From contig JACVIX010000018.1 in assembly GCA_015711725.1 (NCBI GenBank), positions 1 to 35,529 of the forward strand: a stretch of DNA of 35,529 bases, given 5' to 3'. Each line of letters starts with the position of its first letter. Within the stretch, counting starts at the first letter, position 1. The stretch comes from Candidatus Geothermincola primus. GTDB lineage: Bacteria > Actinomycetota > Geothermincolia > Geothermincolales > Geothermincolaceae. A program made the position numbers and the translations under genes. Positions 5,147-35,521 of the stretch are shown here, piece by piece. The notes under the pieces were generated by a model. The model worked only from the letters and a program-made list of their open reading frames with translations. It did no database searches and had not been told where the DNA came from.

Positions 5147-5171
5147 AGCTAAGGAAGGGGATAGATAAACC

Positions 5172-5717: not shown

Positions 5718-5774
5718 AAAGAACTAAAAAAGACAAGGGAGAAATTGTAAAAATAAGACATGGAGGTGAATTAT

Positions 5775-12371: not shown

Positions 12372-12376
12372 GAGAA

Positions 12377-14715: not shown

Positions 14716-15135
14716 ATGAAGTTAGCTCTCATAGATATAAAACGACTGACCTCATCTCGGGGACAGTCCACCGTGGAGTTCGCCCTGGTTTTCCCCTTTC
14801 TTCTTATCATATTTTTACTCTTCGCCCAAGCAGTTATGGTATTGAGAGCGCAGATTATCGTTACCGGGGCCGCGCGGGAAGCGGCTCGTAAGGGAGTGGA
14901 AACCGCAAGCGATGTCCTGATCAAGGGCGCCGCCTACAAAGCCTCAAACGGGCTGGACCCGAATCGAATGAAAGTAGAGGTGATCTGCCCTCACCGCAAA
15001 CGAGGCGAGCCAGTCACAGTGCGCATCAACTACCGGGTTCCTCTCTATATACCTGGACTCCAGCACTTGTTTCCCTCCGAGGTCAACGTGCGCGGCGAAT
15101 CTACCATGCGGGTGGAGAACGAGGGAAAGGTTTAA
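14716..15135 (+). CDS. TadE-like pseudopilin/pilus assembly protein
   Basis: A 139-residue protein with one N-terminal transmembrane segment. RGQSTVEFALVFPFLLIIFLL is the TadE signature: a Gly before a Glu-containing hydrophobic helix, as in Flp pseudopilins. AAREAARKGVE follows, and then a short C-terminal extracytoplasmic domain. AAAGGAG at 14702-14708 supports the ATG. Family role: minor pseudopilin of the Tad/Flp type IVc pilus. The expected TadA ATPase, TadB/C and prepilin peptidase are not in this window, so the pair is an orphan here and may serve a system encoded elsewhere. Confidence 0.85.
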   Translation: MKLALIDIKRLTSSRGQSTVEFALVFPFLLIIFLLFAQAVMVLRAQIIVTGAAREAARKGVETASDVLIKGAAYKASNGLDPNRMKVEVICPHRKRGEPVTVRINYRVPLYIPGLQHLFPSEVNVRGESTMRVENEGKV

Positions 15136-15138
15136 CCT

Positions 15139-15585
15139 ATGGAAGTTTCGATTACCAGCTTTGATACCAGAAAGAGACCTATCCATTACATGCGGAAATT
15201 TCGAGAAGAGAGGGGCGCCATTACCATCTTGACGGTCACGCTTATTGCCATCATGTTCATGCTAGGCGTGTTCTTATTCGATATCATGGTCTTCTTCCGC
15301 ACCAAAGGCGAAGCTCAATCGGCGGCTGATGCAGCTTCTAAAGCGGCGGGTCTGGAGTTAACCCCCCTATTCGGCGTGGGAAATGACCCTCGGGGAGCCG
15401 CTTCACGTTTTGCTAAACTAAATCACGCCGAAATGGTTGACTTTCAAACTGGTTCTTACCGTGGGATGCCCACGGTAACCGTCAAGGTGCGTAAACATGT
15501 TCGCACTCTCTTTCTTCCCCCTGGAAAAGGCGGCTTTTATTTGACAGCAACTTCAAAAACCTATCTGGACTTGAATCCTAAATAG
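15139..15585 (+). CDS. TadG-like/Flp pilus-assembly protein
   Basis: A 148-residue protein. EERGAITILTVTLIAIMFMLGVFLFDIMVFFRTKGEAQSAADAASKAAGLE is the N-terminal membrane segment and helix typical of the putative Flp pilus-assembly TadE/G-like family. The remainder is a short beta-rich extracytoplasmic domain ending in TSKTYLDLNPK. It lacks the large von Willebrand domain of full TadG. It begins 3 bases after the tadE-like stop with GGGAAAGG upstream; a start at 15190 is also possible. It is likely co-translated with its neighbour. Confidence 0.75.
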   Translation: MEVSITSFDTRKRPIHYMRKFREERGAITILTVTLIAIMFMLGVFLFDIMVFFRTKGEAQSAADAASKAAGLELTPLFGVGNDPRGAASRFAKLNHAEMVDFQTGSYRGMPTVTVKVRKHVRTLFLPPGKGGFYLTATSKTYLDLNPK

Positions 15586-18039: not shown

Positions 18040-18624
18040 ATGTTGGGTTTGCTGTTCTTGCTGGCGGTACTGCGACTCGATCCTCAGCAAGAGAGGGAGC
18101 TGGTGGAGAGGGCAAAGACTTCCAGCTTCGCCTTTGGGGAGCTATACGACCATTACTTTCCCATCATCTATGGTTACGTTCTGAAGAGGGTGGGAAATCA
18201 GGAGGACGCGGAAGATATCGCTTCCCTCACTTTCGAGAGAGCTCTCAAAAATATCGATCGCTTCGAGTGGAAGGGGGTCTCGTTTTCTGCATGGCTCTAC
18301 CGTATAGCCACGAATATCATCACCGATTATTTCCGCTCCAAGGGCAGCCACCGCCAGGTCTCCTTCCAAGAAGTAGAAGGGATGATCCCAGCCATGGAAA
18401 TGGACGCCGCGAAAATCGAGATGATCGCGAGGTTGATGGAGATAATAGGACGACTGCCGACATCCTACCAACATATGCTCACCCTCAAGTTCTATGAGGG
18501 TTTGACCCTTGACGAGATGAGCGAGACTCTGGGTTTGAGCAAAAAGACAGTCACCATGAAACTTTACAGGAGCATGAAGGCCTTGCGTAAGTTGGTCATG
18601 GAAAGCGGCTTAGAGTTAAGTTGA
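18040..18624 (+). CDS. ECF-type RNA polymerase sigma factor
   Basis: A 194-residue sigma-70 family protein. Region 2 is AFGELYDHYFPIIYGYVLKRVGNQEDAEDIASLTFERALKNIDRF with FSAWLYRIATNIITDYFRSKG. Region 4 is RLPTSYQHMLTLKFYEGLTLDEMSETLGLSKKTVTMKLYRSMKALRKLV. Regions 1 and 3 are absent, as in ECF factors. The annotated N-terminus (MLGLLFLLAVLRL) is unusually hydrophobic and precedes the typical DPQQERELVERAK; the true start may differ, since several TTG codons are in frame. The next gene, 13 bases downstream, encodes a membrane FecR-like protein that probably acts as its anti-sigma factor. Confidence 0.9.
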   Translation: MLGLLFLLAVLRLDPQQERELVERAKTSSFAFGELYDHYFPIIYGYVLKRVGNQEDAEDIASLTFERALKNIDRFEWKGVSFSAWLYRIATNIITDYFRSKGSHRQVSFQEVEGMIPAMEMDAAKIEMIARLMEIIGRLPTSYQHMLTLKFYEGLTLDEMSETLGLSKKTVTMKLYRSMKALRKLVMESGLELS

Positions 18625-18637
18625 GAAGGTACGAGAT

Positions 18638-20227
18638 ATGCGCAGAGGCAAGAGGGCGGATTGGTTAATAAAATACTTTGAAGGCGCTCAGTTGAGTCCG
18701 CAGACAGCACAGGACTCTCAATTGATGGGAATATTGCATCTAGCCGAATCGCTGAAGTTCGCCTCCCTACTACGACCCGCTCCCAATCCAGAGGCACAAG
18801 CAGCGATAAGAAACAGATTGGTCTTTATGCATCGGGAGTCTGTAGGCGCGAGGAAGAAAAGATTTGGGCTCTTCCGCGATCATCTCCTAAGGCCAGTTCT
18901 CGTGGATGAAAGATTATGGGCATATAGAACGGCAGTAGCCTTCTCTATAATCGCCATCTTAGTAGTGGGGCTATGGTTCGCCGTGACTAGAATTCAACCC
19001 AAAGCTCCTCCTGCCGCCCTAGCCATCACCATAACCTCTGAGGTAGAGGTGGAAGTGAAGCTTCCTGGGGAGGATTGGAGAAAGGTGAAGGGACCATATC
19101 AGCTACCTCAGGAATGCGAGATTCGAACTCTCTCTCAGCGCGCCGAGGTGGATTTGGGAGGTATCGCTCTCTTTCGCTTGGATTACCAGAGCCATATGGA
19201 GATAGCCGAAGCTAACTCAGAATCTGTCCAAATGACAATATTGTCAGGCAGAGCTTATCATCGCATCAATGAAAATCTTCAATACAGGGTAGGCATGGAC
19301 CAGGCTAGCTGTCTCGCCATGGGAACAGCGTTGGACACAGAGCTCTCCGGGGGAGAAATCCGAGCCATACTTGCCATTCAACGGGACGTAAGGGTCTTCT
19401 TTAGGGAGAAGAAATATTTGCTAGCTCAAGGCAACCTTTTTGACCTGGGACAACCTGAACAAGAGCAGGAGGAGGCAAGAATATCTCCCATACCCCTGGA
19501 TATTTTAAAATCCGAATGGCTCATGTGGAATAAACAGTTGGACGAGTTGAGAGGTTGGGATACGGGGATACTCTCAGGAGTCACTCCGGACGAACGCATA
19601 GAGCCACCTCCTCCCCTATCCGGCGAGATCGACCTGAGCGCTTACGAAACTTCGGAGGGGATTAGGCTGGAGTGGCAAGTATCTTTGGTTGAACCGGAAA
19701 GCTTTGCCATCCTGCGTTCTTCCAGCTCTAACCAACTTCTATATCCCAGAGACCTTTATGCCGAGATCACCAGGAGTTCCACCAGAGCTTTCCTGGATAC
19801 CAAATATACCCAGGGATATATCTATTTCTACCGAATCGCTATGTTTTCAGAAGGGAAAATTATCTATAGCGACACGGTGAGAGTGGCAACTAAAAGGCCT
19901 ACTTCCGGCAACATTGTTCTCACCTCGGTGCTTCTACAATCCAGTCCAGGCGTATACTCCATTCAGCTTAAGTGGATAGCTGAAGGAGATCTGAAGCTAG
20001 AGGGTTGGGTTATCTGCAGAACTTCCAATGATTACGAGCCCACCTATCCCCCCCGATCCGGCGAGGATTTCTACGTATTTAAAAATTTTGATGGGCCTAA
20101 GGGTTCATATATCGACTCCTATAATCTCGAGCCAGGTGAGGTTTACCATTACAGAGTGGCCGGCCTCTACCAAGGAGCAGTGGTGATATATTCAAACCTC
20201 ACTTCCCAGACTATCCCATTTTACTAG
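18638..20227 (+). CDS. FecR-like membrane protein with C-terminal beta domains, putative anti-sigma factor
   Basis: A 529-residue protein. Residues 1-95 form a cytoplasmic helical segment resembling the anti-sigma part next to ECF factors (ADWLIKYFEGAQLSPQ, LLRPAPNPEAQAAIRNRLV). One transmembrane helix lies at about 98-117 (TAVAFSIIAILVVGLWFAV). Next comes a FecR-like beta domain (VEVKLPGEDWRKVKG, IRTLSQRAEVDLGGIALFRLD, VQMTILSGRAYHRI). The C-terminal half contains two fibronectin type III-like repeats (GIRLEWQVSLVEPESFAILRS... and SIQLKWIAEGDLKLEGWVICR...). A cell-surface signal sensor that sequesters the adjacent sigma factor is inferred. GAGAAGG lies upstream of the ATG. Confidence 0.7.
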   Translation: MRRGKRADWLIKYFEGAQLSPQTAQDSQLMGILHLAESLKFASLLRPAPNPEAQAAIRNRLVFMHRESVGARKKRFGLFRDHLLRPVLVDERLWAYRTAVAFSIIAILVVGLWFAVTRIQPKAPPAALAITITSEVEVEVKLPGEDWRKVKGPYQLPQECEIRTLSQRAEVDLGGIALFRLDYQSHMEIAEANSESVQMTILSGRAYHRINENLQYRVGMDQASCLAMGTALDTELSGGEIRAILAIQRDVRVFFREKKYLLAQGNLFDLGQPEQEQEEARISPIPLDILKSEWLMWNKQLDELRGWDTGILSGVTPDERIEPPPPLSGEIDLSAYETSEGIRLEWQVSLVEPESFAILRSSSSNQLLYPRDLYAEITRSSTRAFLDTKYTQGYIYFYRIAMFSEGKIIYSDTVRVATKRPTSGNIVLTSVLLQSSPGVYSIQLKWIAEGDLKLEGWVICRTSNDYEPTYPPRSGEDFYVFKNFDGPKGSYIDSYNLEPGEVYHYRVAGLYQGAVVIYSNLTSQTIPFY

Positions 20228-20596: not shown

Positions 20597-20842
20597 ATGT
20601 TGGGACTCTTCCAAAGCTTCGGAGTGCCGGAACTTCTGATAATCCTGGGTATCGCGCTTATAATTTTCGGACCCAGCCGCCTTCCACAGATCGGTCGCTC
20701 CATAGGTAAAGCCATTCGCGAATTCCGAGAGGGCAGCACCGAGGTGACCAAAGCCATACAGGAAGGTTTGGAGGAACCGGAACAGAAAAAGGCTAAAAAA
20801 ACTAAGAAAACCGAGGCAGCTGAAGGAGAAGCTGAGGACTGA
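20597..20842 (+). CDS. tatA: Twin-arginine translocase subunit TatA
   Basis: An 81-residue protein with one N-terminal membrane helix (FGVPELLIILGIALIIFG), the conserved FGPSRLPQIGRSIGKAIREFRE amphipathic helix, and an acidic/lysine-rich tail. AAAGGAGGTC at about 20577-20586 precedes the ATG. TatA forms the Tat translocation pore together with TatC. No separate TatB is present in the window, as in minimal TatAC systems. It is the first gene of a cluster ending in the Tat-dependent formate dehydrogenase, which is its obvious client here. Confidence 0.95.
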   Translation: MLGLFQSFGVPELLIILGIALIIFGPSRLPQIGRSIGKAIREFREGSTEVTKAIQEGLEEPEQKKAKKTKKTEAAEGEAED

Positions 20843-20938
20843 AACAAATCCCGAGCGAAAAATTTCTCGACATTCTATTCACAACTCCCCATATGACCAT
20901 CGGTGAATAACCACTCTTTTTAAGTGATGGAGGCTAGC

Positions 20939-21670
20939 GTGGCCGATCAGAAGATGACCTTCATCGAACATCTGGAGGAGCTGCGCAGGAGAATCATCAT
21001 CGCCCTTCTAGCCATGATGGTGGCGATGGCCGTTTGCTACCTCTACTCCTGGAAAATTCTTGATATACTCAAAAACCCAGCTACCAAGGCTTCCATACCA
21101 CTCAACCTCCATTACTTCTCGGTTCTAGAACCTTTCATGGTGAGATTCAAAATCGCCCTTTACGCGGGCATAGTCCTAGCCTTACCGGTTATTCTATTCG
21201 AGATTCTGGCCTTCATCGCCCCCGCATTGCGCAAAAGAGAGAAGAAGGTCATGTATACATCGCTTGCCCTGATCATTGGCTTTTTTATACTTGGCACTGT
21301 CTTCTGTTATTTCTATATCCTCCCAGCTGGTCTTAACTGGCTAGTTGGACAAGCGGGCAATCGTCTAACCCCCACTTTAAGGGCGGAAGATTATATAGGC
21401 ATCGTCGCCTTGCTCCTTCTGGCTTTGGGTATAACCTTCGAGACCCCCCTGTTGATATTCTTGGTAGTCAGGCTGGGCATTATCACGCCTCAGAGATTAC
21501 ATAAGAACTGGCGCGTAGCGGTAATCGTGATTCTTTGTTTCGCGGCGTTTATCACTCCAGATTGGAATCCCGTGACTATGATTCTGGTGGCCGTTCCCAT
21601 GTTTTTTCTATACGAAGCCAGCATAATGTTCGCTATGTTAGGCTTGCGGAAGAGGGAAAGATTAGAGTAA
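20939..21670 (+). CDS. tatC: Twin-arginine translocase subunit TatC
   Basis: A 243-residue polytopic membrane protein. MTFIEHLEELRRRIIIAL at the N-terminus is the TatC hallmark for twin-arginine signal binding. LEPFMVRFKIALYAGIVLALPVILFEILAFIAPALRKREKK and GITFETPLLIF are further signatures, with about six transmembrane helices. GTG 20939 is chosen because GGAGG lies at 20929-20933; the GTG at 20924 precedes that site. The gene is 96 bases after tatA. It provides the signal-peptide receptor for FdhA export. Confidence 0.95.
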   Translation: MADQKMTFIEHLEELRRRIIIALLAMMVAMAVCYLYSWKILDILKNPATKASIPLNLHYFSVLEPFMVRFKIALYAGIVLALPVILFEILAFIAPALRKREKKVMYTSLALIIGFFILGTVFCYFYILPAGLNWLVGQAGNRLTPTLRAEDYIGIVALLLLALGITFETPLLIFLVVRLGIITPQRLHKNWRVAVIVILCFAAFITPDWNPVTMILVAVPMFFLYEASIMFAMLGLRKRERLE

Positions 21671-21818: not shown

Positions 21819-22718
21819 ATGGAGATAGGCGATTTTAAACTTAAGCAGCGAAAAATCACCAAGAAGTTAGTCAAACAGAAAACTAAAGAGAGCGAGGAAA
21901 CCTTCCCACGGTTGAAAGATCTCATGAGGCTTTATCGCGAGATATTTGGGGTCCAGAGGAAATACTTACCAACGGTGGACATAACTATAAAGCCACTGAG
22001 TGACCTTCAGATAAGGGCGCGGGTGGAAGAAGGGATTCCGCTTATCGATAGACAAGAGATGGAAATCGACTACTCCTTCTTTCGCACCATCTTCCTAGAT
22101 ATAGCCAAAGTTTTCTTAAAGAGAGGCAAAAATTTATCGGATGAAACAAAGTCATTTTTGCTAGGAGACAATCTGGATAGCGGCACTTTAAAAGAACTGG
22201 GAGAAGCTTTTTTGCATGGCCAAGTTGATTATCTGGAGAGGCAAGCGGAAGAGTTGAAAGTGGAATCTTCGATCTTGAAAATGATGCTTCATCTCACCTT
22301 CGCGGTTTTTTTCGAAAAGATCGCCCTGCAATATCAGAAAAAAGCTGACCTGGATCAGGTCACAAGCATAGGTTGCCCTATATGCGGGAGTCCTCCTATG
22401 ATGGGATTCAATCGGGAAGGCGACGGACTGCGTGTCTTGGAATGTTCTCTATGTGGAAGCCGCTGGGGCGTTCCTCGCTTGGCTTGTCCATTTTGTCACG
22501 ATTCGCAACAGGAAGGTCTTAAATATGTCTTCGTGGAAGGGGATAACAAGAGGCGTATCTACACCTGCGAGCGCTGCAAGAGATATATCAAGATCGTGGA
22601 CCGAATGGGTGAGCCAGGAGAAGTACTGCTCCCTGTGGAGGATCTTCTCACCGGTCACCTAGACCAGCTGGCGAAAGAAAGGGGATATATCCGTTCATGC
22701 GCCAGCGTATTCTCATGA
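21819..22718 (+). CDS. fdhE: Formate dehydrogenase accessory protein FdhE
   Basis: A 299-residue protein of the FdhE family. The N-terminal half is helical. The C-terminal half has four CxxC knuckles (CPICG, CSLCG, CPFCH, CERCK) that form rubredoxin-like metal sites, with GLRVLECSLCGSRW and YTCERCKRYIKIVDR as conserved segments. FdhE is needed for activity of Tat-exported formate dehydrogenases, interacting with the catalytic subunit before export. GGAGGTCG at 21811 precedes the ATG. Its place between tatC and fdhA fits that function exactly. Confidence 0.92.
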   Translation: MEIGDFKLKQRKITKKLVKQKTKESEETFPRLKDLMRLYREIFGVQRKYLPTVDITIKPLSDLQIRARVEEGIPLIDRQEMEIDYSFFRTIFLDIAKVFLKRGKNLSDETKSFLLGDNLDSGTLKELGEAFLHGQVDYLERQAEELKVESSILKMMLHLTFAVFFEKIALQYQKKADLDQVTSIGCPICGSPPMMGFNREGDGLRVLECSLCGSRWGVPRLACPFCHDSQQEGLKYVFVEGDNKRRIYTCERCKRYIKIVDRMGEPGEVLLPVEDLLTGHLDQLAKERGYIRSCASVFS

Positions 22719-23025: not shown

Positions 23026-26000
23026 ATGGAACTTACGCGAAGAGGTTTCCTGAAGCTCTCAGGTGCTGGCATCGGCACCGCCGCTCTAGTAAGCATGGGA
23101 TTCAATATCTCAGCTTACGCTGCTGGTATGGAATTGCGTACCAGTACCGCCACAGAGACCACCACGGTCTGCCCTTACTGCTCAGTGGGGTGTTCCGCCA
23201 TCGTGAGTGTCATCGACGGCAAACCCGTGGCTATTGAAGGCCTTCCGGACAGTCCGGTTAACCGGGGGAGCCTCTGTTCTAAGGGACAGGCCATCCTTCA
23301 GGTATCCACCAGCGACAGAAGGTTAAACAAAGTACGCGTGCGCGAGCCCAACTCCGAGGAATGGAAGGAGATTTCCTGGGAGAAGGCGCTCGACGAGATC
23401 GCGGAGCTGATCAAAGAAACCAGAGACGCCAACTTTAAAATCAAGGACGACAAGGGAATAACCGTAAATCGTTGTGACGCCATCGCCAACCTAGGTGGCG
23501 CGGCTCTGGACAACGAAGAACTTCATATGATCACCAAATTCGCCAGAGCCCTGGGGCTCGTCTACATCGAGCACCAGGCGCGTATATGACACTCCTCCAC
23601 GGTCTCCAGTCTTGGAGCCACGTATGGACGGGGAGCCATGACCAATCACTGGGCGGATTTAAAGAACGCCGACGTCTTCATGGTATGCGGAGCCAACCCC
23701 GCCGAAAACCATCCTTGCTCCTGGAAGTGGGTTGAGGAAGCGCGGGACAAAAGGGGAGCCAAACTCATCGTGGTGGATCCCCGGTTCACCCGCACAGCGG
23801 CGAAAGCGGATTATTTTTCTTTTATCCGCCCGGGAACCGATATCGCTTTCTTCGGCGGTTTGATCAATTATGCCATGGAGAAAAACTACATCCAGTGGGA
23901 GTATGTACAGAACTATACCAACGCCCCCAATGTGGTGGATCCTAGTTTCTCTTTCGACGTTAAAACCGGTCATTTCAACGGGTGGGACAGCGAGAAAAAA
24001 GCATATAAAAAAGCGACTGATATATGGAAGCTGGTCTACCAGGACCCCAATACTCCGCAAAGGGTGGCGTTGATCGAAGTAACCGACATGGTCAACGCCA
24101 GGGGGAAACCCACGGGCATGATCAATGGGGACCCGAAAACTTGCAGGGTGCGTACGGAAGATCCCCTCTATCCCCAGACCGTATTCGCCAAGCTGAAAGA
24201 ACACTACTCCCGTTACACTCCAGAGACTATCGAAAAAGTGTGTGGGATCCCCAAAGAAAAATTCATCGATATCGCCGAGGCTTATTGCGGCGGCACTTAT
24301 AAACCGGAGAAATCCGGTAATTTGATGTATGCCATGGGGCTCACCCAGCATACAGTCGGAGTTCAGAATATTCGCACCTTCGCTATGCTCCAGCTGCTGC
24401 TGGGCAATACGGGTATGCCAGGCGGCGGGATCAATGCCCTGAGAGGCGAGTCCAATGTGCAAGGTTCCACTGACGCTGGCGCTCTCTATCATATCCTTCC
24501 TGGTTACCTACCCGTCCCCGACTCCGTCACCCTTAACAGCCTCGATGCCTACAATGCGGCTTACTCTAAGGAAAAGATCGGTGGTTTTTGGGTAAATCGC
24601 AGCAAATTTATCGCTAGTCTGCTGGTCTCCTACTGGGGGGATTACGCCAGAAAGGACCTGAAAAAAGCCTTCGATCTGCTCCCCAAGAGAGACGGAACTA
24701 AAGACTACTCCCATATACCCTTATTCGAAGACATGTACCAGGGGATTATCAAAGGGATGATCAGCTGGGGTCAGAACCCACCGGTGGGAGGCCCCAACGC
24801 CAATCTGGAGTCTAAAGCTCTTGAGAACCTGGATTGGCTGGTAGCCATCGACCTATGGGACACCGAGCTGATGAATTTCTGGCGTCGTCCCGGTGCCAAT
24901 CCTAAGGAGATAAAGACCAAGGTTTACGCTCTGCCCGCCGCCTCATCCATTGAGAAAAGCGGGTCGATAACCAATTCCGGGAGGCTCGCGCAGTTCCGTT
25001 GGAAGGCGGTAGAGCCTCCTGGCGAGGCAAAAAGCGACCTATGGATCGTGGACCAGTTGGCACAAAGGCTGAAAAAACTTTATGAAGCCGACAACGGAGC
25101 GCCCAACCGCGAGGCTATCACCAACTTGTTCTGGGATTACGAGCGGGACGAGCACGGCGAGATCGAGGTGGACAACATCGCCCTGGAATTGGGCGGATTC
25201 AAGTGGCCTACCGATGTCAAAGGAACCCAAGATTTCTGGGAGAAAGCCCGCAAGAATGTCCTGCTTAACTTTACCGAGCTCAAGGATGATGGAAGCACCG
25301 CCTGCATCAACTGGATTTATTCTGGAATGTGGGCTAAGGAGGATGACGCGGGACTCAAGATTATCAACGAAAAAGTAGGGTTACCCAAGAATCAAGTCCC
25401 TCGCAACAAGTCCAAGTGGCAGTTCCAGTATGATCCCCAGAATATCTATAAGGACCAACCACCCCTTTCCCTCAATCCCTTATGGGCATATGCTTGGCCC
25501 ATCAACCGCCGTATAATCTACAATCGTTGTTCAGCTGATTATAACGGGGTGCCCTGGGCAAAAGATAAAGCTCTGGTAAGCTGGGACGGAACCAAGTGGG
25601 TAAACAACGACGTTCCTGATTTCTCCTTCCGTACCAAGGATCCCTCCGGCAACTTTGTGCAGGTTCCGCCTGCTGTCTCCGCCTCCGGAGTGGATGCAGG
25701 ACCCTTCCTAATGAACATCGAAAAGGGCAACCAGGTGGGACAGCTATTCGGCAACAGGACCAAAGAAGGGCCCTTCCCTGAACATTATGAACCTCGGGAG
25801 AGTCCAGTGAAAAACCTGCTCAACGGAGCCCAGTGGAATCCCACTATAAAATCGGAGTACAACTCGGCGAAAGAACAGCCAGACCTTTATGGGTTCGCCG
25901 AAGTGGGAGATCCTGAATATCCTTACGTAGGAACCACTTACAGGCTCACTGAGCACTGGCAAGCCGGGCAGATGACCAGAAATCTCACCTGGCTGGGAGA

Positions 26001-26358
26001 GGCTATGCCGGAGATGTTCGTGGAGATTTCCAAGGAGTTAGCCGAGGAGAAAGGCATCAAGAAAGGCGACTTGGTGGAGGTATACAGCAAGAGGGGCAAG
26101 GTCCAAGGAATCGCGGTAGTTACCCCCCGTCTACCTCGGCTAACTTTAGTCGATGGAAATGGCGGCATCAAAAAGGTAGATATTGTGGGCATGGTCTGGC
26201 ACTTCGGTTACACCGGGCTCTTCCCAGGCGGTCCGGAGCGAGATAAAATACCCAAGATAAGTTATGCCGCCAACCAGCTTACGCCTCATGTGGGGGACGC
26301 AAATACCACTATACCTGAATATAAAGCGTTCCTCGTCAACATAAGGAAGGTGAGCTAA
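23026..26358 (+). CDS. fdhA: Selenocysteine-containing formate dehydrogenase, catalytic subunit (UGA read as Sec188)
   Basis: An uninterrupted 1110-residue product is obtained if the in-frame TGA at 23587-23589 is read as selenocysteine; a conventional gene caller would split it into two. Tat signal: ELTRRGFLKLSGAG at the N-terminus with a cleavage-like AYAAG. A four-iron motif (CPYCSVGCSAIV, GSLCSKG) follows. The context QARI-Sec-HSSTVSSLGATYGRGAMTNHW matches E. coli FdnG/FdoG. Downstream are the molybdopterin domains (NPAENHPCSWKW, GNTGMPGGGINALRGESNVQG) and the C-terminal dinucleotide-binding domain (LTEHWQAGQMTRN). The enzyme oxidises formate to CO2, or the reverse, at a Mo/W bis-MGD centre on the outside of the membrane. 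The stop lies one base before fdhB's start. Confidence 0.97.
23601..23619 (+). promoter_or_regulatory. Bacterial SECIS hairpin following the Sec UGA
   Basis: GG (23601-23602) and CC (23618-23619) pair, with a bulged T at 23603 on the 5' side. The upper stem CTCCA/TGGAG (23604-23608 and 23613-23617) closes the apical loop GTCT. A bulged U next to a short upper stem with a GU-containing loop is the arrangement needed by E. coli SelB. The hairpin starts 11 bases after the UGA. Confidence 0.85.
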
Positions 26359-26359
26359 G

Positions 26360-27247
26360 ATGCCGAAAGCTATACTATTCGACGCCAGTAAATGCACAGG
26401 CTGCAGGGCTTGCCAGGTCGCCTGCAAAAGCTGGAATCAGCGGGAATATACGGAAACCCATAATAACGGCACCTATGAGAATCCTCTGGAGCTCACATCT
26501 CAGTGCTGGATGCGCATACTCTTCAACGAACCGGAGGAGGTAAAGGACGTAAATGACCTACGTTGGTATTTCACCAAATACCAATGCATGCACTGCGAAG
26601 AAGCTACCTGTGTAAAGGTTTGCCCCAGCGGAGCCACCAAAAAGTACAAGGTAAGCGACGATGACGCCGAGGCTTACGTGGTGATGACCGATCCCAAGAA
26701 ATGCATAGGTTGCAATTACTGCGTGGCCACCTGCCCATTCTCCGCCTGCCGTTATGACGCCAAAGAGAAGGGCATCTTCCGCTGCCGACTGTGCATTGAC
26801 CGCATCTCCCATAATTCCAGCGATTTTCCGTTCGAGAGCAAGCCTGATTTCACCGAGGAGATGAAAAAGAAATACCCTCGCAATATCCCTGCTTGCGTGC
26901 ATACCTGCACCTCTGGCGCGCTTTCATTTGGGGAGAGGGAAGATTTGTTGAAAAAAGCGGAGGAACGTAAGGATTTCCTCAAAAACAAGCGAAATCGCCA
27001 AAATGCGCAAATCTACGGTGTAAACGAGTTAGATGGCTTGCATTACATCTATGTATTAGAGGATAATCCAGAGGCTTACGGATTGCCTAAAAATCCTACA
27101 GTACCTGCAGGTGTAACCGCGTTTGAAGCTCTGGTAAAGCCAGGATACCCATGGGGCGGCATCGCTTTGGTTGGTTTAATCGCTGCCGCCGGTATCAATT
27201 TCGTGATCAATAAGCGGAACCAGGGCTTGGAGAGAAAGGAGGGATGA
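26360..27247 (+). CDS. fdhB: Formate dehydrogenase iron-sulfur subunit FdhB
   Basis: A 295-residue protein with four ferredoxin-like cluster motifs. These are Cys12-x2-Cys15-x2-Cys18-x3-Cys22 (KCTGCRACQVACKSW), CMHCEEATCVKVCPSGAT, CIGCNYCVATCPFSACRYD, and CRLCIDRI with CVHTCTSGALSFG. A C-terminal membrane helix (GGIALVGLIAAAGINFVI) anchors it, as in E. coli FdnH/FdoH. It carries electrons from FdhA across its clusters towards the membrane. The gene begins one base after fdhA's stop, and rnfC begins one base after its own stop. No cytochrome b subunit follows. Confidence 0.95.
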   Translation: MPKAILFDASKCTGCRACQVACKSWNQREYTETHNNGTYENPLELTSQCWMRILFNEPEEVKDVNDLRWYFTKYQCMHCEEATCVKVCPSGATKKYKVSDDDAEAYVVMTDPKKCIGCNYCVATCPFSACRYDAKEKGIFRCRLCIDRISHNSSDFPFESKPDFTEEMKKKYPRNIPACVHTCTSGALSFGEREDLLKKAEERKDFLKNKRNRQNAQIYGVNELDGLHYIYVLEDNPEAYGLPKNPTVPAGVTAFEALVKPGYPWGGIALVGLIAAAGINFVINKRNQGLERKEG

Positions 27248-27248
27248 G

Positions 27249-28568
27249 ATGGCTGCTGAATTAAAAACCTTCAAAGGAGGCATCCACCCTCCCTACAATA
27301 AAGAGCTTTCCTCAGGTAAGGCCATCGCCGAGGCTCCCATCCCCGATGAGTTGATAATTCCTCTTCAGCAGCATATCGGGGCTCCCTGCGCTCCCCTGGT
27401 CTCCCCCGGCGACAAAGTCAAAGTGGGGCAGAAGATTGGGGAAGCCGAGGCTTTCGTCTCTGCTCCGGTGCACGCCTCGGTATCCGGCACGGTCAAGTCT
27501 ATCGAGGAAGTGGCTAATTTCACTGGTGCCATGGTAAAAAGCGTGATTATCACCCCAGATCCCCAGCAAGAGGCATTCTCCGGCACCCCCCGGGACACCG
27601 AAAACCTCTCCCAGGAGGAGCTAAGGGGGATAGCCCGAGAGGCGGGATTAGTGGGCATGGGCGGGGCGGCCTTTCCCACCCACGTCAAGCTCACTCCTCC
27701 CAAAGAAAAGCCGGTCGATCTGGTTATCATCAACGGTTGCGAATGCGAGCCCTTCCTTACCTGTGACCATCGGCTGATGCTGGAACGCCCCGAAGACCTG
27801 GTAAAAGGGCTAAAACTGCTCATGCGCGCCGTAGGAGCGGAGAAGGGCATCATTGGGGTGGAAGCAAACAAGATGGACGCGGCGGACGCTCTGCGCTCCG
27901 CCTCCGCCTCTGAGCCCAGCGTAAGCGTGGAGATCCTTGAGGTAAAATATCCGGAAGGTGCGGAGAAGATGCTCATCTTCGCGCTAACCGGCCGCAAAGT
28001 TCCCCCAGGCAAGCTCCCCAGCGAGGTAGGTTGCCTTGTGCAGAACGTAGGAACTGCCATCGCCCTCCATGAGGCCGCCTCCACCGGCAAGCCCCTCTAT
28101 GAGAGGGTTGTTACAGTCACCGGGCCAGGAGTGAAGAACCCGGGGAACTTCCTCACCCGTATCGGGACGCCCATCTCCACGCTCATCGATGCGGCGGGGG
28201 GCTTCGTGGGCTCCCCCACCAAGTTGATCATGGGAGGCCCCATGACCGGGTGGGCACAGCCCGACGCCGGTGCCGCAGTGGTCAAAGGCACCTCGGGAGT
28301 GGTGGTGCTCACCAGCGACTTGGTTGACTTAGGAGAAGAGAGCGAATGCGTGCGCTGCTCCAAGTGCGTGGATGTCTGCCCCATGTTCCTGATGCCCAAC
28401 TTCATTGTCCAGGCCACGAAGAGAGCGCAATGGGACAAGGCGGAGATGTGGGGAGCGTTGGACTGTTTCGAGTGCGGCTGCTGTTCTTTCACCTGCCCCG
28501 CCTACATCCCCCATGTAGATTATGTACGGAAGGCCAAGGCCGAAATTGCGGCCCTGAAGAAGAAGTAG
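27249..28568 (+). CDS. RnfC homologue (electron transport complex subunit C)
   Basis: A 439-residue protein of normal RnfC length. The N-terminal domain is FKGGIHPPYNKELSSGKAI with a lipoyl-like swivelling region (VSPGDKVKVGQKIGEAEAFVSAPVHASVSG). The NADH/FMN-binding domain is GLVGMGGAAFPTHVKL, NGCECEPFLTCDHRLM and GRKVPPGKLPSEVGCLVQNVGTA. An SLBB-like domain and two four-iron clusters follow (CVRCSKCVDVCP at about 367, CFECGCCSFTCP). The normal partner is the Rnf complex, where RnfC is the peripheral cytoplasmic NADH dehydrogenase site. Here it directly follows fdhB, and no RnfA, B, E or G lies in the window. It may exchange electrons with NAD(H) on the cytoplasmic side. Confidence 0.9.
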   Translation: MAAELKTFKGGIHPPYNKELSSGKAIAEAPIPDELIIPLQQHIGAPCAPLVSPGDKVKVGQKIGEAEAFVSAPVHASVSGTVKSIEEVANFTGAMVKSVIITPDPQQEAFSGTPRDTENLSQEELRGIAREAGLVGMGGAAFPTHVKLTPPKEKPVDLVIINGCECEPFLTCDHRLMLERPEDLVKGLKLLMRAVGAEKGIIGVEANKMDAADALRSASASEPSVSVEILEVKYPEGAEKMLIFALTGRKVPPGKLPSEVGCLVQNVGTAIALHEAASTGKPLYERVVTVTGPGVKNPGNFLTRIGTPISTLIDAAGGFVGSPTKLIMGGPMTGWAQPDAGAAVVKGTSGVVVLTSDLVDLGEESECVRCSKCVDVCPMFLMPNFIVQATKRAQWDKAEMWGALDCFECGCCSFTCPAYIPHVDYVRKAKAEIAALKKK

Positions 28569-28583
28569 AGGAGGCGATGGGAT

Positions 28584-29540
28584 ATGGCAACTAATAAATT
28601 AATCGTTACCCCGCCCCCCCACCTGAGAGCCAAGGAGAACATACCCATCTCTATGAGGGATGTGCTCATAGCCCTATCTCCAGCGGTGGTTGCGGCGCTG
28701 GTGGTCTTTACTTGGAACGCGCTTTTCAATATTGCCCTATGCACGGTGGTGGCTATCCTTTCCGAGCTTCTTATGAGAAAGCTGATGAAGAGGAAGCCCA
28801 CCCTCAATGATTATAGCGCGGTGGTGACCGGAGTGCTGGTAGCCATGGTTATGCCGGCAAAGATTCACTGGGTGATGTTGGTTATCGCCACCTTCGTGGC
28901 TGTGGGCATTGCCAAAGAGCTCATGGGCGGATTAGGTAGAAACTTGTTCAACCCCGCCCTCTTCGGGTTCGTCTTCGTATGGCTCTGCTCCGGCTTTATC
29001 GCCTCCTGGGCAGGAAATCTCGGCATATTGCCCGCTGGGTTTGATGGAGCCGTCGCCGCCACTCCCCTGGCATACCTCAAGCACGGCACCTTTTCCAGCA
29101 TGCCCCATCCCTCCTATTTGGGTCTGCTCTTCGGGCATCCCCGTGGGGGCGCCCTGGTGGAAGTAGGCTCCTTCTGGGTATTGCTGGGCGCCGCATATCT
29201 CCTCTACAGAGGCGTCATCCGGGCGGCAATTCCCACCGCGATCGTGCTTACCGTCTTGCTTCTCTCCTACATATTGGGAAAGGACGGAGTATATGCCATC
29301 CTGGCAGGAGGAGTTATGCTGGGCGCTTTCTTTATGGCTACCGACTGGGTAACTAGCCCCATGACCCTGTTTGGGCAGATCGTCTTCGGCGTGATAATCG
29401 GCGTCTGTATAGTATTGATCAGAACCTACGGAGCGCCCTCAGGAGCTGTGGCTTTCTCCATCCTGATAGGAAATGCCTTCGTGCCCTTGCTGGACAAGGT
29501 GTTCAAACCACAGCGCTTTGGGGCAGTTGCTGCCGCCTGA
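28584..29540 (+). CDS. RnfD homologue (membrane flavoprotein subunit)
   Basis: A 318-residue membrane protein with about nine or ten hydrophobic helices. GGLGRNLFNPALFGFVFVWL matches the conserved RnfD/NqrB segment. The flavinylation site appears as DGAVAATPLAYLKHG, where Thr160 takes the place of the covalent FMN threonine and the usual SGAT is altered to AAT. GGAGG precedes the ATG. In Rnf, RnfD carries a covalent FMN exposed on the outside. Here it could accept electrons from the extracytoplasmic FdhAB and pass them inward. An adjacent apbE gene supports flavinylation. Ends 11 bases before a strong terminator stem. Confidence 0.88.
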   Translation: MATNKLIVTPPPHLRAKENIPISMRDVLIALSPAVVAALVVFTWNALFNIALCTVVAILSELLMRKLMKRKPTLNDYSAVVTGVLVAMVMPAKIHWVMLVIATFVAVGIAKELMGGLGRNLFNPALFGFVFVWLCSGFIASWAGNLGILPAGFDGAVAATPLAYLKHGTFSSMPHPSYLGLLFGHPRGGALVEVGSFWVLLGAAYLLYRGVIRAAIPTAIVLTVLLLSYILGKDGVYAILAGGVMLGAFFMATDWVTSPMTLFGQIVFGVIIGVCIVLIRTYGAPSGAVAFSILIGNAFVPLLDKVFKPQRFGAVAAA

Positions 29541-29551
29541 CAGCTAGGAAT

Positions 29552-29588
29552 AAAAAACAGGGGCGAGTTCTATCGCCCCTGTTTTTTT
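29552..29588 (+). terminator. Rho-independent terminator after rnfD
   Basis: ACAGGGGCGA and TCGCCCCTGT pair around the loop GTTCTA. An A-run 5' and a T7 run at 29582-29588 flank the stem. This separates the fdhA-rnfD transcript from apbE. Confidence 0.95.
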
Positions 29589-29796
29589 CTTTAAAATCAA
29601 ATCCAAAAAAGGTGATGGTAATTCCAGTTCTATCCCCGGATTACAGGTCATTCCAGTCAATTCATATCTTACGCCAATCGTCCCATGAATTTAACTGAGA
29701 AAACCATCTCTCGTATAGAGAGTCAATACAAATCAGATTCCATCTAAAGCCTCGGTCGAGAAATATGAAAACGCTCTACTAGTTGAATGTAGCAAA

Positions 29797-29825
29797 CTGA
29801 CGCTCATTTCAAGGTCTGCTATACT
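29797..29825 (+). promoter_or_regulatory. Predicted promoter giving a leaderless apbE mRNA
   Basis: CTGACG at 29797-29802, a 17-base spacer and TATACT at 29820-29825. Transcription would begin about 7 bases later, at or next to the apbE ATG at 29833. No Shine-Dalgarno lies between. Confidence 0.45.
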
Positions 29826-29832
29826 ACTGCCT

Positions 29833-30933
29833 ATGAAGGATAGAGAAATCAGGAAGAGGAATCGCAGGGACACCCTCTTATTGATCATCTTGATAGTGAT
29901 AGCAATACCCGTTGCGATATTATTCATAAGATGGGTGGATCCCGGCTACACTCGCGAGCCCTACCGCAGAAGCGAATTCCTCCTCGACGACAGAATAACT
30001 ATAGTGGCTTACGGAAAAAACCGGGAAATGGTGGAGAAGGCTGTAGACTCCGCTTTCCAAGAAATCAGACGTCTGGAGCGCGTCTTTAACCGCTACGACA
30101 CTCAAAGCGAGCTCGCGGAGGTAAACCGCGAAGCCTATCACCGCGCGGTCGAGGTATCTCCAGATCTTTTCGAGGTCCTGGATTTATCTCTTGAATACTA
30201 TCACATCACTGAGGGAACATTTGACATCACTATAGGACCTCTCATTGATCTCTGGGATATACTGGGAAGGATGCAAAGGGGTGAAGGTCCTCCCACCGAA
30301 GAAGAGATCGACACGGCCAAAGCGAGATGTGGCGCTGATAAATTAATACTCGATTCGGAATCTCGCACCGTGAGATTTACCATGGAAAATATGATCATCG
30401 ACCTGGGAGGAGTGGCCAAAGGCTATTGCGCGGACAGGGCAGTGGCTATGCTCCGAGAAAAAGGGGTTGAGAGAGGCTTCGTGGACATGGTGAGCACCAC
30501 CGTGACATTGGGAGAAAAACCCGTAAAAGCTGGCGGCCCTTGGTGGCGCATGGCCATCTCTGACCCTCGCAAAGAGGGAAGCAGCCTGGGAGTCCTCAAC
30601 TTTCCAGGAGATGTATCGGCAAGCACTAGCGGTGATTATCAGCGATATTTCGAATACGAAGGCATAAGGTACTGCCATATTCTTGACCCAGCTAGCGGGC
30701 GTCCAGCCAACAAAGGCGTGATCAGCGACACCGCGGTGATTCTAGCAGCGGATAGCCACGGTGGAGCCAGATCCGATATTCTTTCCACCGCTTTCTTTAT
30801 CATGGGTTATCCCAAATCCTTACGTTGGGCTGAGGAACATGGAATAGAGCTCTTGCTGGTGGACTCCCATGAGATCGTCCACCATACCCCCAATTTAAGT
30901 GAATATTTGGAGATAAGCTCGGAACAGGACTGA
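29833..30933 (+). CDS. apbE: FAD:protein FMN transferase ApbE, membrane-anchored
   Basis: A 366-residue ApbE-family protein. An N-terminal membrane anchor (residues about 13-34) follows a very basic leader. The core is recognisable: RRLERVFNRYDTQSELAEVN, TEGTFDITIGPLIDLW, LGGVAKGYCADRAVAMLREKG, DVSASTSGDYQRYFEYEGIRYCHILDPASG, and RSDILSTAFFIMG with the metal-binding Asp. The usual N-x-GGD/N segment after KG...A...L is replaced by VDMVSTTVTLG (residues about 217-227), a notable deviation. Function: transfers FMN from FAD to a threonine of RnfD/NqrB/RnfG-type proteins outside the cytoplasm. Its natural client here is the RnfD homologue just upstream. The start lacks a ribosome binding site and may be leaderless. 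Confidence 0.88.
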   Translation: MKDREIRKRNRRDTLLLIILIVIAIPVAILFIRWVDPGYTREPYRRSEFLLDDRITIVAYGKNREMVEKAVDSAFQEIRRLERVFNRYDTQSELAEVNREAYHRAVEVSPDLFEVLDLSLEYYHITEGTFDITIGPLIDLWDILGRMQRGEGPPTEEEIDTAKARCGADKLILDSESRTVRFTMENMIIDLGGVAKGYCADRAVAMLREKGVERGFVDMVSTTVTLGEKPVKAGGPWWRMAISDPRKEGSSLGVLNFPGDVSASTSGDYQRYFEYEGIRYCHILDPASGRPANKGVISDTAVILAADSHGGARSDILSTAFFIMGYPKSLRWAEEHGIELLLVDSHEIVHHTPNLSEYLEISSEQD

Positions 30934-31907: not shown

Positions 31908-32003
31908 TGGCGGAGATGCGTAAGAATCGAACTTACCTGACGCCCTTTACGACGCCACACCGGTTTTGAAGACCGGGCCGCCCACCAGGACGAATGCATC
32001 TCC
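31908..32003 (-). tRNA. selC: tRNA-Sec (selenocysteine, anticodon TCA)
   Basis: On the minus strand a 96-base tRNA with the bacterial tRNA-Sec architecture. The acceptor stem has 8 bp (GGAGATGC/GCATCTCC), the T arm has 5 bp (GTAAG-TTCGATT-CTTAC), and the anticodon loop CTTCAAA is closed by CCGGT/ACCGG. A long variable arm contains GGCGTC and GGGCGTCA segments that pair with G-U wobbles. Discriminator G and an encoded CCA are present. It decodes the UGA in fdhA. It is encoded downstream of selB on the same strand. Confidence 0.97.
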
Positions 32004-32183: not shown

Positions 32184-34091
32184 TCACCTCAACACGCGGT
32201 AATCTCCCTCCCGACGAGTTACACGGTTCCGGTCGAAGTATTCCAAAAGGGGTATTGAATACTTCCGGCTTATTCCAAGCATGTCTTTTAAGTCCTTTAC
32301 TTCCAAACGCCCATTCTTACCAATAAATTCTCTAATTTTCTCCTCAGCCTCTCGCAGCTTGCCCCTGGCTAGGAAAAATTCTGGCGTAACCTGCTCTAGT
32401 TTGCCCTCCTCCATAAGCATATTAATATAATCTCGAGCCTTGCGGGAATCCAGATGGTATCTATCCATTATCTCTCTGAAGAACGGGGGAGCAAAACCAG
32501 CACTGGCGATTTCCTTAAGAATCTCTCTCATCTCTTCTCTCTCCTCATTGGTTAGCACCCGTCCTCTGCCCTCGATGGATACCCTTCCCTCTTTTATCTC
32601 GAAATATCCCTCGTCTACCAGTGCCTTCAATATGCCATCGAAATCCCCAGGACGCAGCGTCCCCCTCACCGACACGCGTAAAGTTTCCTTCTCCATGCCT
32701 ATTTCCCTGGGATTGGCGCGGTGGAAACTCTCCAGTATCTCCCAGATGCGCTGGTTATAATCTCTAAATATATCGGTCGGCAGAATTTTCAACTTTTGCT
32801 CCACCTGCATAGTTCGGAGGGTATCGTTCTCCAACATTCTTTCGACGGCATCCTTAACCGCTCTTTCTGAAAGCTCGCTACCCCTCACCAATTCATCCAA
32901 AGTCATCGGTTTGGGATCATCCTTGAAAGTCAATAGCAATATGTCTTCTGTCTCTCCCCGCTCTCTTTTAGCCAGCGTATCTAGGAGTTGCTCATTCGCC
33001 CTGCGATGCTTTATGGGATGAGAGTTGATTATCTCTCCTCCACCGATGGTGGTCACCGGGGAATAACTGCGCAGGATAAAACGGTCCTTATATTTCACTA
33101 CTACTGGTGATTCCAACCGCAGCTGGGCGTAACAGCTATCGCCTGGATTAAGCTCCTCCCCTTCCCCAAGAAGCACAATCCTGCCCAGTACTTCCCGCGT
33201 GGCATGATGAAAACGAACTCTGGAGCGGTTCTTAAGCGGTCTAGGCGCATCATCAATCAGATATAGCCTCACGTCAACCATATAGGTAGGGCTAAGGTAT
33301 CCAGGGCTTACAATTACATCTCCTCGATCTATCTCCTCTGTGGATATACCCGGCAAGTTTAAAGCCACCCTCTGACCAGCTAATGCTTGCTCCACATCCT
33401 TGCCGTGTACCTGTACATCTCTTACCCGCAGGATGCGGTTCTGCGGAAGCAAACATGCCTCCTGCCCCTCTAAAATGGATCCTTCCCAGAGGGTACCCGT
33501 GACTACTGTACCTATACCCCTCAAAGTAAACACCCGGTCGATAGGCAAACGGAAAGGTCCCTCCGCTTGCCTGGCTCTTACCCTTTTCGCCGCACTAGAG
33601 ATGGACTCTCTAAGCTGGTCAAGCCCCCTGCCTGTGACCACCGAGGTTACTATAATCTCCGCGCCCTCTATAGTGGTTCCTTTTAGGGTATCCCTTATAT
33701 CCTCCTTGACCAGCTCCACCATCTCCTCATCCACCAAATCGGCTTTGGTGATCGCCACCAGCCCTTCCCTCACCTGGAGCAAATCTATGATGGCTAGGTG
33801 TTCCCTGGTTTGGGGCATAACCCCATCGTCAGCCGCCACCACCAAAAGCACGAGGTCAAACCCGGTGGCACCTGAGAGCATGTTCTTCACGAAGTGTTCA
33901 TGACCCGGCACATCCACCACACCCGCCGTCGTTCCATCGGGGAGGATAAATTCAGCGAAGCCTAGCTCGATGGATATGCCCCTTTCCTTCTCTTCCTTTA
34001 ACCGGTCGGTATCCACTCCCGTTAGCGCTTTGACCAGTTGGGTTTTTCCATGATCTATATGTCCAGCTGTCCCAATAATGAAGCTGCGCAA
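32184..34091 (-). CDS. selB: Selenocysteine-specific elongation factor SelB
   Basis: A 635-residue GTPase. All G motifs are visible: [17 protein letters not shown] (G1), [12 protein letters not shown] (G2), [12 protein letters not shown] (G3) and TKAD (G4). EF-Tu-like domains II and III follow ([33 protein letters not shown]). The C-terminal third is a series of winged helices that bind the SECIS, with [20 protein letters not shown] and [38 protein letters not shown]. It delivers Sec-tRNA to UGA codons. TTG 34091 is the start; GGAGG sits inside the end of selA, 7 bases upstream, so the pair is translationally coupled. Confidence 0.96.
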
Positions 34092-34093: not shown

Positions 34094-35521
34094 TTAGACC
34101 TCCAGGGACGAGGAAATCCTCGATAGAGAGGCAATTATATATTTGTCGTCATCCTTCACCAAGGTTCGTGGATCAAGCAACAGTTGCTCCTCCTTGATGC
34201 GGGCGATAATAGGGGGATCGCTTTCCCGCAAACGCTCTTCCAACTGATTGACGGTTAAATACGGAGAGGTAAGGGACACCGCCCATGTAGGTAGCTGAAC
34301 TAGAGGTAACGCGCCACCACCAACCTGGGAAAATTCTTCCACCACTTTTACCTGAAAGCTGTCCCCTAATTTTTTGATTCCATTTGCCAGCGCTCGCGCG
34401 CGCTTTTTCAATTCCACCCCAGAAAGGTTCATCATAGATAGAGTGGGAATCTTCTCCATCGCTTGATGGGGCTCAAGATAGAGGCGTAAGGTCGCTTCCA
34501 GAATAGCCAAAGTTAGTTTGTCCACCCGCAAGGCCCTGGCTAGAGGATGTTTGCCCATCGCCTCCACCAGCTCTTTCTTTCCCAATACTATTCCTGCTTG
34601 TGGCCCCCCAAGAAGTTTATCCCCACTGAAGGTAACCAGATCGGCCCCTTCTTTTAAGGACTGTGAGGGGGTCGGTTCATAAGGTAGCCCGAACTGAGTG
34701 AGGTCTATCAACATCCCGCTTCCTAGGTCATCCATCAAAATTAGCCCGCTCTCCGCAGCCAGCTCGCTTAATTCCGCCAAAGAGGTCTCAGCGGTAAAGC
34801 CTACCACTCGGAAGTTACTGGGATGGGCCCGCAGAAGTATCGCCGTGGAATCGTTGATCGCTTTTCGGTAATCATCTATATATGTTTTGTTGGTGGTCCC
34901 CACCTCCACCAGTATCGCCCCGCTCTGTTTCATCACCTCAGGAAGCCGGAAAGATCCACCTATCTCTATTAGCTGTCCCCTGGATACGATGACCTCCCTG
35001 CCCTTCGCGTGAGTAGTAAGAGCCAGTAGCACCGCTCCCGCGTTATTGTTCACCACTAGGGCTGACTGCGCACCGGTGAGCCGGCAGAGCAGATCACGGA
35101 CATGCTCGCCCCGAGAGCTCCTCCCCCCTCGCTTCAAGTCCAGTTCCAGATTGCAGTAGCATCCCCCGATAACCGCTAGGTTTTCCAGAGCTTCTTCAGC
35201 GATCAGGGACCTTCCAAGGTTGGTATGGATGATCACCCCGGTGGCGTTGACCACCCGGCGCAAATTATAGCGCAGTCTTTCCCGGACCTCTTCTTCCACT
35301 AGAGGTAACAAATCCTCAACTTCGGTCTTTATCTCCCCCAATTCCATCTCGTCCCGGGCCGCTTGAATAGCTTGTCGCACCCCATCAACCACACTCCTTA
35401 CGGCCTCCACGACGATTTCTCTAGGAATGGCATCCACGGACTCATGGAATCTGTTAAAGGCATGTAGTATCTCGTTTACAGATGAAAGACGTCTCAAATA
35501 ATCTTCTTTCCCCACTGCCAA
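34094..35521 (-). CDS. selA: L-seryl-tRNA(Sec) selenium transferase SelA
   Basis: A 475-residue fold-type I PLP enzyme. NATGVIIHTNLGRSLIAEEA, GEHVRDLLCRLTGAQSALVVNNNAGAVLLAL and SRGQLIEIGGSFRLPEVMKQSGAILVEVGTTNKT are SelA hallmarks. The PLP lysine is about Lys302 in FSGDKLLGGPQAGIVLG. It converts Ser-tRNA(Sec) to Sec-tRNA(Sec) with selenophosphate. Length is close to the family norm of about 460. The start is set at TTG 35521, but there is no good ribosome binding site and the frame remains open to the window edge, so the true start may lie beyond. selD is not in the window. Confidence 0.95.
   Translation of the reverse strand: MAVGKEDYLRRLSSVNEILHAFNRFHESVDAIPREIVVEAVRSVVDGVRQAIQAARDEMELGEIKTEVEDLLPLVEEEVRERLRYNLRRVVNATGVIIHTNLGRSLIAEEALENLAVIGGCYCNLELDLKRGGRSSRGEHVRDLLCRLTGAQSALVVNNNAGAVLLALTTHAKGREVIVSRGQLIEIGGSFRLPEVMKQSGAILVEVGTTNKTYIDDYRKAINDSTAILLRAHPSNFRVVGFTAETSLAELSELAAESGLILMDDLGSGMLIDLTQFGLPYEPTPSQSLKEGADLVTFSGDKLLGGPQAGIVLGKKELVEAMGKHPLARALRVDKLTLAILEATLRLYLEPHQAMEKIPTLSMMNLSGVELKKRARALANGIKKLGDSFQVKVVEEFSQVGGGALPLVQLPTWAVSLTSPYLTVNQLEERLRESDPPIIARIKEEQLLLDPRTLVKDDDKYIIASLSRISSSLEV

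Follow-up and report, generated by a model that had tools for sequence, protein, structure and literature searches.

How does an exported formate dehydrogenase dispose of its electrons when its operon encodes RnfC and RnfD at the place of a cytochrome b? This question is raised by the fdhA-fdhB-rnfC-rnfD operon of Candidatus Geothermincola primus, which lies in a stretch of 35,529 nucleotides (assembly GCA_015711725.1, contig JACVIX010000018.1, positions 1 to 35,529) that was analysed whole and is called the window here. The initial annotation, made from the sequence alone, had suggested that an outward-facing formate dehydrogenase passes electrons to a flavin on RnfD and via RnfC to NAD in the cytoplasm, or in the opposite direction, and this is still the best-supported reading: with a probability of about 0.77, FdhAB-RnfCD would form a single complex in the membrane that acts as an electrogenic and reversible half-Rnf formate:NAD+ oxidoreductase. 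The direct basis for it is the operon, the conserved association of its genes, the cofactor ligands, a separate clade, and the absence of RnfA, RnfE and RnfG. The electron path from RnfD to RnfC is taken by analogy from Rnf structures, and we infer the contact of FdhB with RnfD, NAD+ as the acceptor in this subfamily, the reversibility, the direction in vivo and the ion coupling.

The four genes form a single operon in which 1, 1 and 15 bases separate neighbours, exactly as had first been read. FdhA scored above the cut-off for formate dehydrogenase-N alpha subunits (TIGR01553, 1052 against 814 bits). It has a Tat signal, and its reading frame contains one TGA, at codon 188. In 52 aligned FdhA homologues this position is TGA in 45 and Cys in 7, and because the homologues exchange selenocysteine (Sec) and Cys there, TGA188 is read as Sec. 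A stem is present directly after TGA188, but as a SECIS fold it was not better than shuffles (z -0.48), so that the Sec call rests on the Cys/Sec exchange; the window itself supplies tRNA-Sec, SelB and SelA. FdhB fell below the equivalog cut-off for formate dehydrogenase beta subunits (192 against 335 bits), though it is FdnH-like, its closest solved chain being Escherichia coli FdnH (1kqf_B). A hydropathy peak lies within the last 80 amino acids of the window protein and of 64 of 70 homologues.

RnfC scored above the TIGR01945 cut-off (543 against 246 bits) and RnfD above that of TIGR01946 (250 against 207 bits) without reaching the nqrB cut-off. RnfD, of 318 amino acids, consists of PF03116 only, with no fused PF00175 NAD-binding domain. 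Homology is full length, the closest solved chains being 7zc6_C for RnfC and 9eri_D for RnfD, and T160, N123 and D254 of the window RnfD align with T156, N123 and D249 of Acetobacterium woodii RnfD. All 82 half-Rnf RnfD sequences compared share these three flavin ligands, and the eight cluster cysteines of RnfC are unchanged in 80 of 80. The two [4Fe-4S] clusters and the FMN/NAD fold of RnfC, as well as the covalent FMN site and the riboflavin ligands of RnfD, are thus present at the sequence level. An AlphaFold model of RnfD, of modest confidence (mean pLDDT 65) and used for the fold match only, matched the RnfDs of A. woodii and Clostridium tetanomorphum (9eri_D and 7zc6_D) with TM-scores of about 0.8. 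RnfC tails in the half-Rnf rows of the alignment are shorter than in most full-Rnf rows; the short C-terminal tail was considered as evidence that contact with RnfB had been lost and dropped, since the A. woodii RnfC tail reads as short too.

The window's genome is a metagenome-assembled genome (MAG) of 3.17 Mb in 225 contigs, 99.7% complete, and its content was checked family by family. Family searches of this assembly gave no RnfA or RnfE, no RnfG (FMN_bind), and no members of PF02508 or PF04205, so that there is no NqrA-F set. A single RnfC and a single RnfD are held by the genome, and no second rnf operon, complete or otherwise, was found elsewhere in it, a point on which the initial annotation had wanted certainty. 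RnfB is absent from the operon, no genome-wide search for it having been made. A Ni_hydr_CYTB-type cytochrome b (PF01292) had no match in the genome, nor any in the operon, and a complex-I/Ech 49-kDa subunit (NuoD/EchE-type) had none in the genome. On contig C15 (L202), Wood-Ljungdahl genes (an acetyl-CoA synthase cluster together with MetF-like and methyltransferase genes) adjoin those of a cytosolic Sec formate dehydrogenase whose further subunits are of NuoE/NuoF type. By this gene content and the operon together, the organism combines Wood-Ljungdahl genes with a cytosolic NAD-linked and a predicted transmembrane formate dehydrogenase.

The operon recurs in the window's family, order and class with RnfD identities of 48-69%. 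When GTDB genomes were scanned with a profile built from these RnfDs, 79 distinct loci came up, 78 of them with an RnfD call. At these 78 loci, which were picked by similarity to the half-type RnfD so that the counts describe that RnfD type and not all RnfDs, FdhA lay in the RnfD operon in 47 and FdhB only in 11 (several cut by contig ends); the partner was a PhsA-like Tat molybdoenzyme in 7 and a [NiFe] hydrogenase in 2, while 10 were edge-truncated or other and 1 had a full Rnf with RnfA/E/G. The adjacency without rnfA/E/G was found across three phyla: Actinomycetota (Geothermincolia and allies), Bacillota (Syntrophomonadaceae, Halobacteroidaceae, Tindallia, Dethiobacter and the isolate Anoxynatronum buryatiense) and Chloroflexota (Dehalococcoidia). 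A. buryatiense Su22 (L141) is a cultivated carrier; the labels Thioalkalivibrio (L109) and Hydrogenedentota (L130) on two loci may reflect binning errors, and a search of viral contigs gave no RnfD relative. Three gene orders occur, fdhAB-rnfCD, rnfCD-fdhAB (L105, L116, L117, L138, L148, L152, L155) and fdhAB-rnfDC (L144), and the association of formate dehydrogenase with RnfCD therefore outlasts rearrangement. RnfC and RnfD formed 69 adjacent pairs, and relatives have no further gene between fdhB and rnfC, the gaps of about 1-30 bases being kept. A conserved downstream cytochrome b, which the initial annotation had thought would mark a chance insertion, was not found in the relatives, which keep rnfCD there. 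Because the four-gene set recurs across phyla, the adjacency is judged not to be a chance insertion.

In an RnfD tree of 92 sequences (68 half-Rnf and 24 full-Rnf, with the RnfDs of three solved Rnf complexes included), a single branch with support of 100/99 parts the 24 from the 68, and a quick RnfC tree that included A. woodii RnfC gave the same single split (SH-aLRT 98). Where relatives own a full Rnf, the half-Rnf copies are parted from its RnfC and RnfD as well, contrary to the suspicion that the operon's rnfC and rnfD might be close homologues of a complete rnf operon. The residues diagnostic of half-Rnf in RnfD are E112 and W255, with W255 adjoining the riboflavin ligand D254; in RnfC they are C172 and T333.

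In the A. woodii Rnf complex, electrons move outward from ferredoxin through RnfB and the [2Fe-2S] cluster of RnfA/E to RnfG, and return from the FMN (T156) to the riboflavin (N123, D249) of RnfD and on through the clusters and FMN of RnfC to NAD+ (PMC11889175; review PMC12174285). Since T160, N123, D254 and the eight RnfC cysteines are kept, the operon would encode exactly this return leg plus an outside enzyme that delivers electrons. Formate would be oxidised by FdhA outside the membrane, and FdhB, with one transmembrane helix, would relay the electrons via four clusters to the FMN on RnfD T160, where ApbE would attach it. From this FMN the electrons would move across the membrane to RnfD's riboflavin and would reach NAD+ by way of the two clusters and the FMN in RnfC. 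RnfCD would be the inward leg of Rnf alone; the outward leg, formed by RnfB, RnfA, RnfE and RnfG, would not be needed because the electrons start outside. The initial annotation had seen a caveat in the lack of RnfA and RnfE, and both are indeed missing here, but the structures place them on the outward leg (PMC11889175, PMC12174285) and their absence would be no obstacle. One negative charge per electron would move inward, with scalar protons released outside and consumed inside, and formate oxidation would therefore build membrane potential. In reverse, the membrane potential would power the reduction of CO2 to formate on the outside at the expense of NADH. The potentials of formate (about -0.43 V) and NAD+ (-0.32 V) differ by about 0.11 V at standard potentials, and the step from formate to NAD+ is probably both electrogenic and near equilibrium. 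With plentiful formate, membrane potential would be made, and with formate kept low by a partner it would be spent in pushing NADH electrons onto CO2.

Several findings weigh against a self-sufficient FdhAB-RnfCD complex. The absences in the window's genome rest on a MAG assembly of 225 contigs, and the scarcity of rnfA/E/G among the 79 loci is partly due to selection. RnfA/E were found elsewhere in the genome in 19 of 20 other carriers tested, so that in these a mixed complex with Rnf acting in trans is possible by gene content, and two UbiA-family genes in the window's genome make a quinone pool possible.

The alternative that survives best retains the same complex and path and has RnfD also move Na+, after the gated-channel model of RnfD/NqrB, which would make it a true redox pump. 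An ion path through RnfD/NqrB has been proposed for the C. tetanomorphum Rnf and the Vibrio cholerae NQR (models in PMC12174285), and the sediment-type isolate labels of many carriers fit soda-lake samples by our reading of their titles. The Na+ step of A. woodii, however, is assigned to RnfA/E (PMC11889175), absent here, and RnfG, the conformational shuttle of the RnfD model, is absent too. The energy available between formate and NAD is also small, about 0.11 V at standard potentials. We consider such pumping rather unlikely. Clearly less probable is a hybrid Rnf, in which FdhAB docks on RnfCD and RnfA/B/E/G are borrowed in trans so that formate electrons enter a complete pump. The 19 carriers with RnfA/E and the full rnfCDGEAB (L070) of G001, a relative in the window's family, would allow it, but RnfA/E and RnfG are lacking from the window's genome and RnfA/E from the Dehalococcoidia carrier G062, and the half-Rnf RnfC and RnfD are a lineage apart from the full-Rnf versions with which they share a genome. 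It is just as improbable that FdhAB feeds quinone or another membrane acceptor, with RnfCD a co-regulated, separate NADH-side or flavin-transfer module. Quinone reduction via a cytochrome b is the norm for FdnG/H-type enzymes, and the UbiA-family genes would agree with this route; against it stand the lack of a Ni_hydr_CYTB-type cytochrome b in the genome, the close and uninterrupted spacing of fdhB and rnfC in relatives, and the number of adjacent RnfC-RnfD pairs. A decayed rnf operon beside an unrelated fdh operon, whether remnant or chance insertion, might be suspected from the presence of only two of six Rnf subunits and is ruled out by recurrence in several phyla and gene orders, by invariant ligands that mark the open frames as constrained, and by the separate clade.

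FdhAB-RnfCD as one complex can be set beside several known systems. With the RnfABCDEG complex of A. woodii and C. tetanomorphum it shares full-length RnfC and RnfD homology, flavin ligands, cluster cysteines and fold, but it has no RnfA, RnfE or RnfG, its electron source is an exported formate dehydrogenase instead of ferredoxin, and its RnfC and RnfD belong to a separate clade with diagnostic residues. FdnGHI is alike in its Tat-exported Sec catalytic subunit and in a beta subunit with a C-terminal membrane helix; the window set is without the cytochrome b gamma subunit and has RnfCD instead, pointing to NAD(H) and not quinone. Nqr/Rnf-like two-subunit systems (PMC8238504, PMC11334425) also work with a single leg, in which a membrane flavoprotein of NqrB/RnfD type links NAD(P)H to the outside, but their RnfD is fused to PF00175, is without the flavinylated Thr and is paired with an NqrC/RnfG-like protein. 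The window operon has a separate RnfC, an RnfD that retains the Thr, and a catalytic oxidoreductase as partner. Soluble NAD-dependent formate dehydrogenases (FdhA plus NuoEF-type subunits, with one Sec example on contig C15) have the same formate:NAD chemistry and are, unlike the proposed complex, cytoplasmic, not transmembrane and not electrogenic.

The initial annotation had thought the complex possibly undescribed, which holds with one reservation. Frank et al. 2016 (PMC5080403) reported that the Rnf of the uncultured Firmicute unFirm_1 'appears to be truncated', with C and D only and adjoining a formate dehydrogenase, and found both RnfC and the formate dehydrogenase in the metaproteome. 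This is very probably the same system as the window operon, but it was treated as the oddity of a single MAG and called a cation-pumping Rnf, with no distribution, clade or cofactor analysis and no electron path. Timmers et al. 2018 (PMC6295475) listed RnfC, D and G in a soda-lake syntroph, and apparent 'RnfCD' leads (PMC5736913, PMC11844248) turned out to be full rnfCDGEAB operons. In the literature searched, mainly non-subscription, no description of the system, its distribution, hydrogenase version or mechanism was found. The adjacency had thus been noted once before, in one MAG, without an explanation.

RnfCD was also found beside other enzymes. Geothermincolia and allied lineages have a second set, hydS-hydL-(about 165 amino acids)-rnfC-rnfD-protease-hypF, which encodes a Tat-exported [NiFe] hydrogenase with RnfCD at the usual cytochrome b place, and these genomes often carry Fdh-RnfCD, Hyd-RnfCD and a complete rnfCDGEAB side by side. 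On the tree, RnfCs of the hydrogenase and the formate type from this class are interspersed (77% identity), but the RnfDs of the two types stay apart (38-40% identity), and we therefore read RnfC as the shared NAD side and RnfD as the putative partner-specific side. The protein of about 165 amino acids between hydL and rnfC (L157, 7360-7857, reverse strand; L161, L163 and others) is conserved without a Pfam or NCBIfam match, and has about four predicted membrane helices by our reading of its hydrophobic segments; it is possibly an adaptor between HydS and RnfD. At L115 (8950-13691) and L126, in MAGs labelled Desulfovibrio and Syntrophomonadaceae, RnfC-RnfD and an FdhB-like protein (Tat) are followed by [NiFe] hydrogenase genes, apparently a second hydrogenase half-Rnf architecture with an iron-sulfur relay subunit. 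A Tat PhsA-like molybdopterin enzyme, the predicted third half-Rnf partner, adjoins RnfCD at L056, L061, L088, L091, L132, L139, L142 and L153, the L132 set including a TorD/NarJ-type chaperone. These RnfCD partners are all exported dehydrogenase/reductase types, and the half-Rnf phenomenon is broader than formate dehydrogenase. Far more tentatively, RnfC-RnfD might be a portable half-Rnf port through which exported enzymes of several unrelated kinds (formate dehydrogenase, [NiFe] hydrogenase, PhsA-like molybdoenzyme) are linked to cytoplasmic NAD(H) directly, electrogenically and without quinone or cytochrome. In the window's organism, where Wood-Ljungdahl genes are present but neither RnfA/E nor an Ech/complex-I 49-kDa subunit was detected, the port might then be a main energy-coupling site, which would point to acetogen- or syntroph-like anaerobes of neither 'Rnf' nor 'Ech' type.

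The features of the locus are listed in Table 1. The strong hairpin and T-run behind rnfD were found by direct reading, and a simple terminator scanner did not list the hairpin. That a terminator ends fdhAB-rnfCD and that apbE adjoins it had been correctly noted at first, but apbE lies outside the transcript: it starts 292 bases past rnfD and has a promoter-like site at 29797-29825, and because of this site and the intervening terminator it was rejected as an operon member for the window and is predicted to be a separate unit that is not co-transcribed. In Ca. Solincola-type relatives (L043-L054) a P-type ATPase of about 830 amino acids (E1-E2 ATPase), not present in the window, lies between rnfD and apbE.

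Table 1. Position, strand and character of the genes and the terminator at the fdhAB-rnfCD locus (window coordinates).
Feature	Position	Strand	Description
tatA	20597..20842	+	upstream of the fdhE-like gene
tatC	20924..21670	+	predicted Tat export of FdhAB; neighbour also in relatives
fdhE-like	21819..22718	+	formate dehydrogenase accessory protein; FdhE central/C domains; kept upstream of fdhA in relatives
fdhA	23026..26358	+	predicted Tat-exported Sec formate dehydrogenase catalytic subunit, FdnG-like; U188 = TGA at 23587-23589; TIGR01553
fdhB	26360..27247	+	four-cluster ferredoxin subunit, one C-terminal hydrophobic helix, FdnH-like; gap 1 after fdhA
rnfC	27249..28568	+	cytoplasmic NAD(H)/FMN/2x[4Fe-4S] subunit; gap 1 after fdhB
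rnfD	28584..29540	+	polytopic membrane subunit; covalent FMN site T160, riboflavin ligands N123, D254; gap 15
terminator	29552..29588	+	Rho-independent-type, closing the fdhAB-rnfCD operon; AAAAAACAGGGGCGA-GTTCTA-TCGCCCCTGTTTTTT, read directly
apbE	29833..30933	+	FAD:protein FMN transferase; own transcription unit
tRNA-Sec	31908..32003	-	downstream of apbE
selB	32184..34091	-	downstream of the operon, on the other strand
selA	34094..35521	-	downstream of the operon, on the other strand

Elsewhere in the window are an arsenic/metal-type cluster (4496-7246, with an ArsR-type regulator at 4496-4894 and an ArsP-family permease at 6155-7246), one protein joining MerR-type and TetR-type DNA-binding domains (8552-9469), an aldehyde:ferredoxin oxidoreductase-type (AFOR) gene (12368-14206), TadE and TadE/G-like pilus assembly genes (14716-15585), and an ECF-like sigma factor followed by a 529-amino-acid protein without a Pfam match (18040-20227).

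If FdhAB-RnfCD does work as proposed, it would be a type of respiratory complex that joins formate (or H2) on the outer side of the membrane to NAD(H) in the cytoplasm, using flavins and iron-sulfur clusters only. How NADH is tied to formate and H2 at low potentials is a standing question in syntrophs and acetogens, above all in those without Rnf such as Syntrophomonadaceae isolates (PMC5017805), and a path from NADH to formate driven by membrane potential would be a direct and testable answer. The half-Rnf would also be a natural isolation of the Rnf inward leg, in which RnfD-RnfC transfer and any RnfD ion transport could be studied without RnfA/E, and among cultivated carriers, of which there is at least one, A. 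buryatiense Su22 may serve as the experimental entry point. Wiring of this kind seems to be present in many oxygen-avoiding bacteria.

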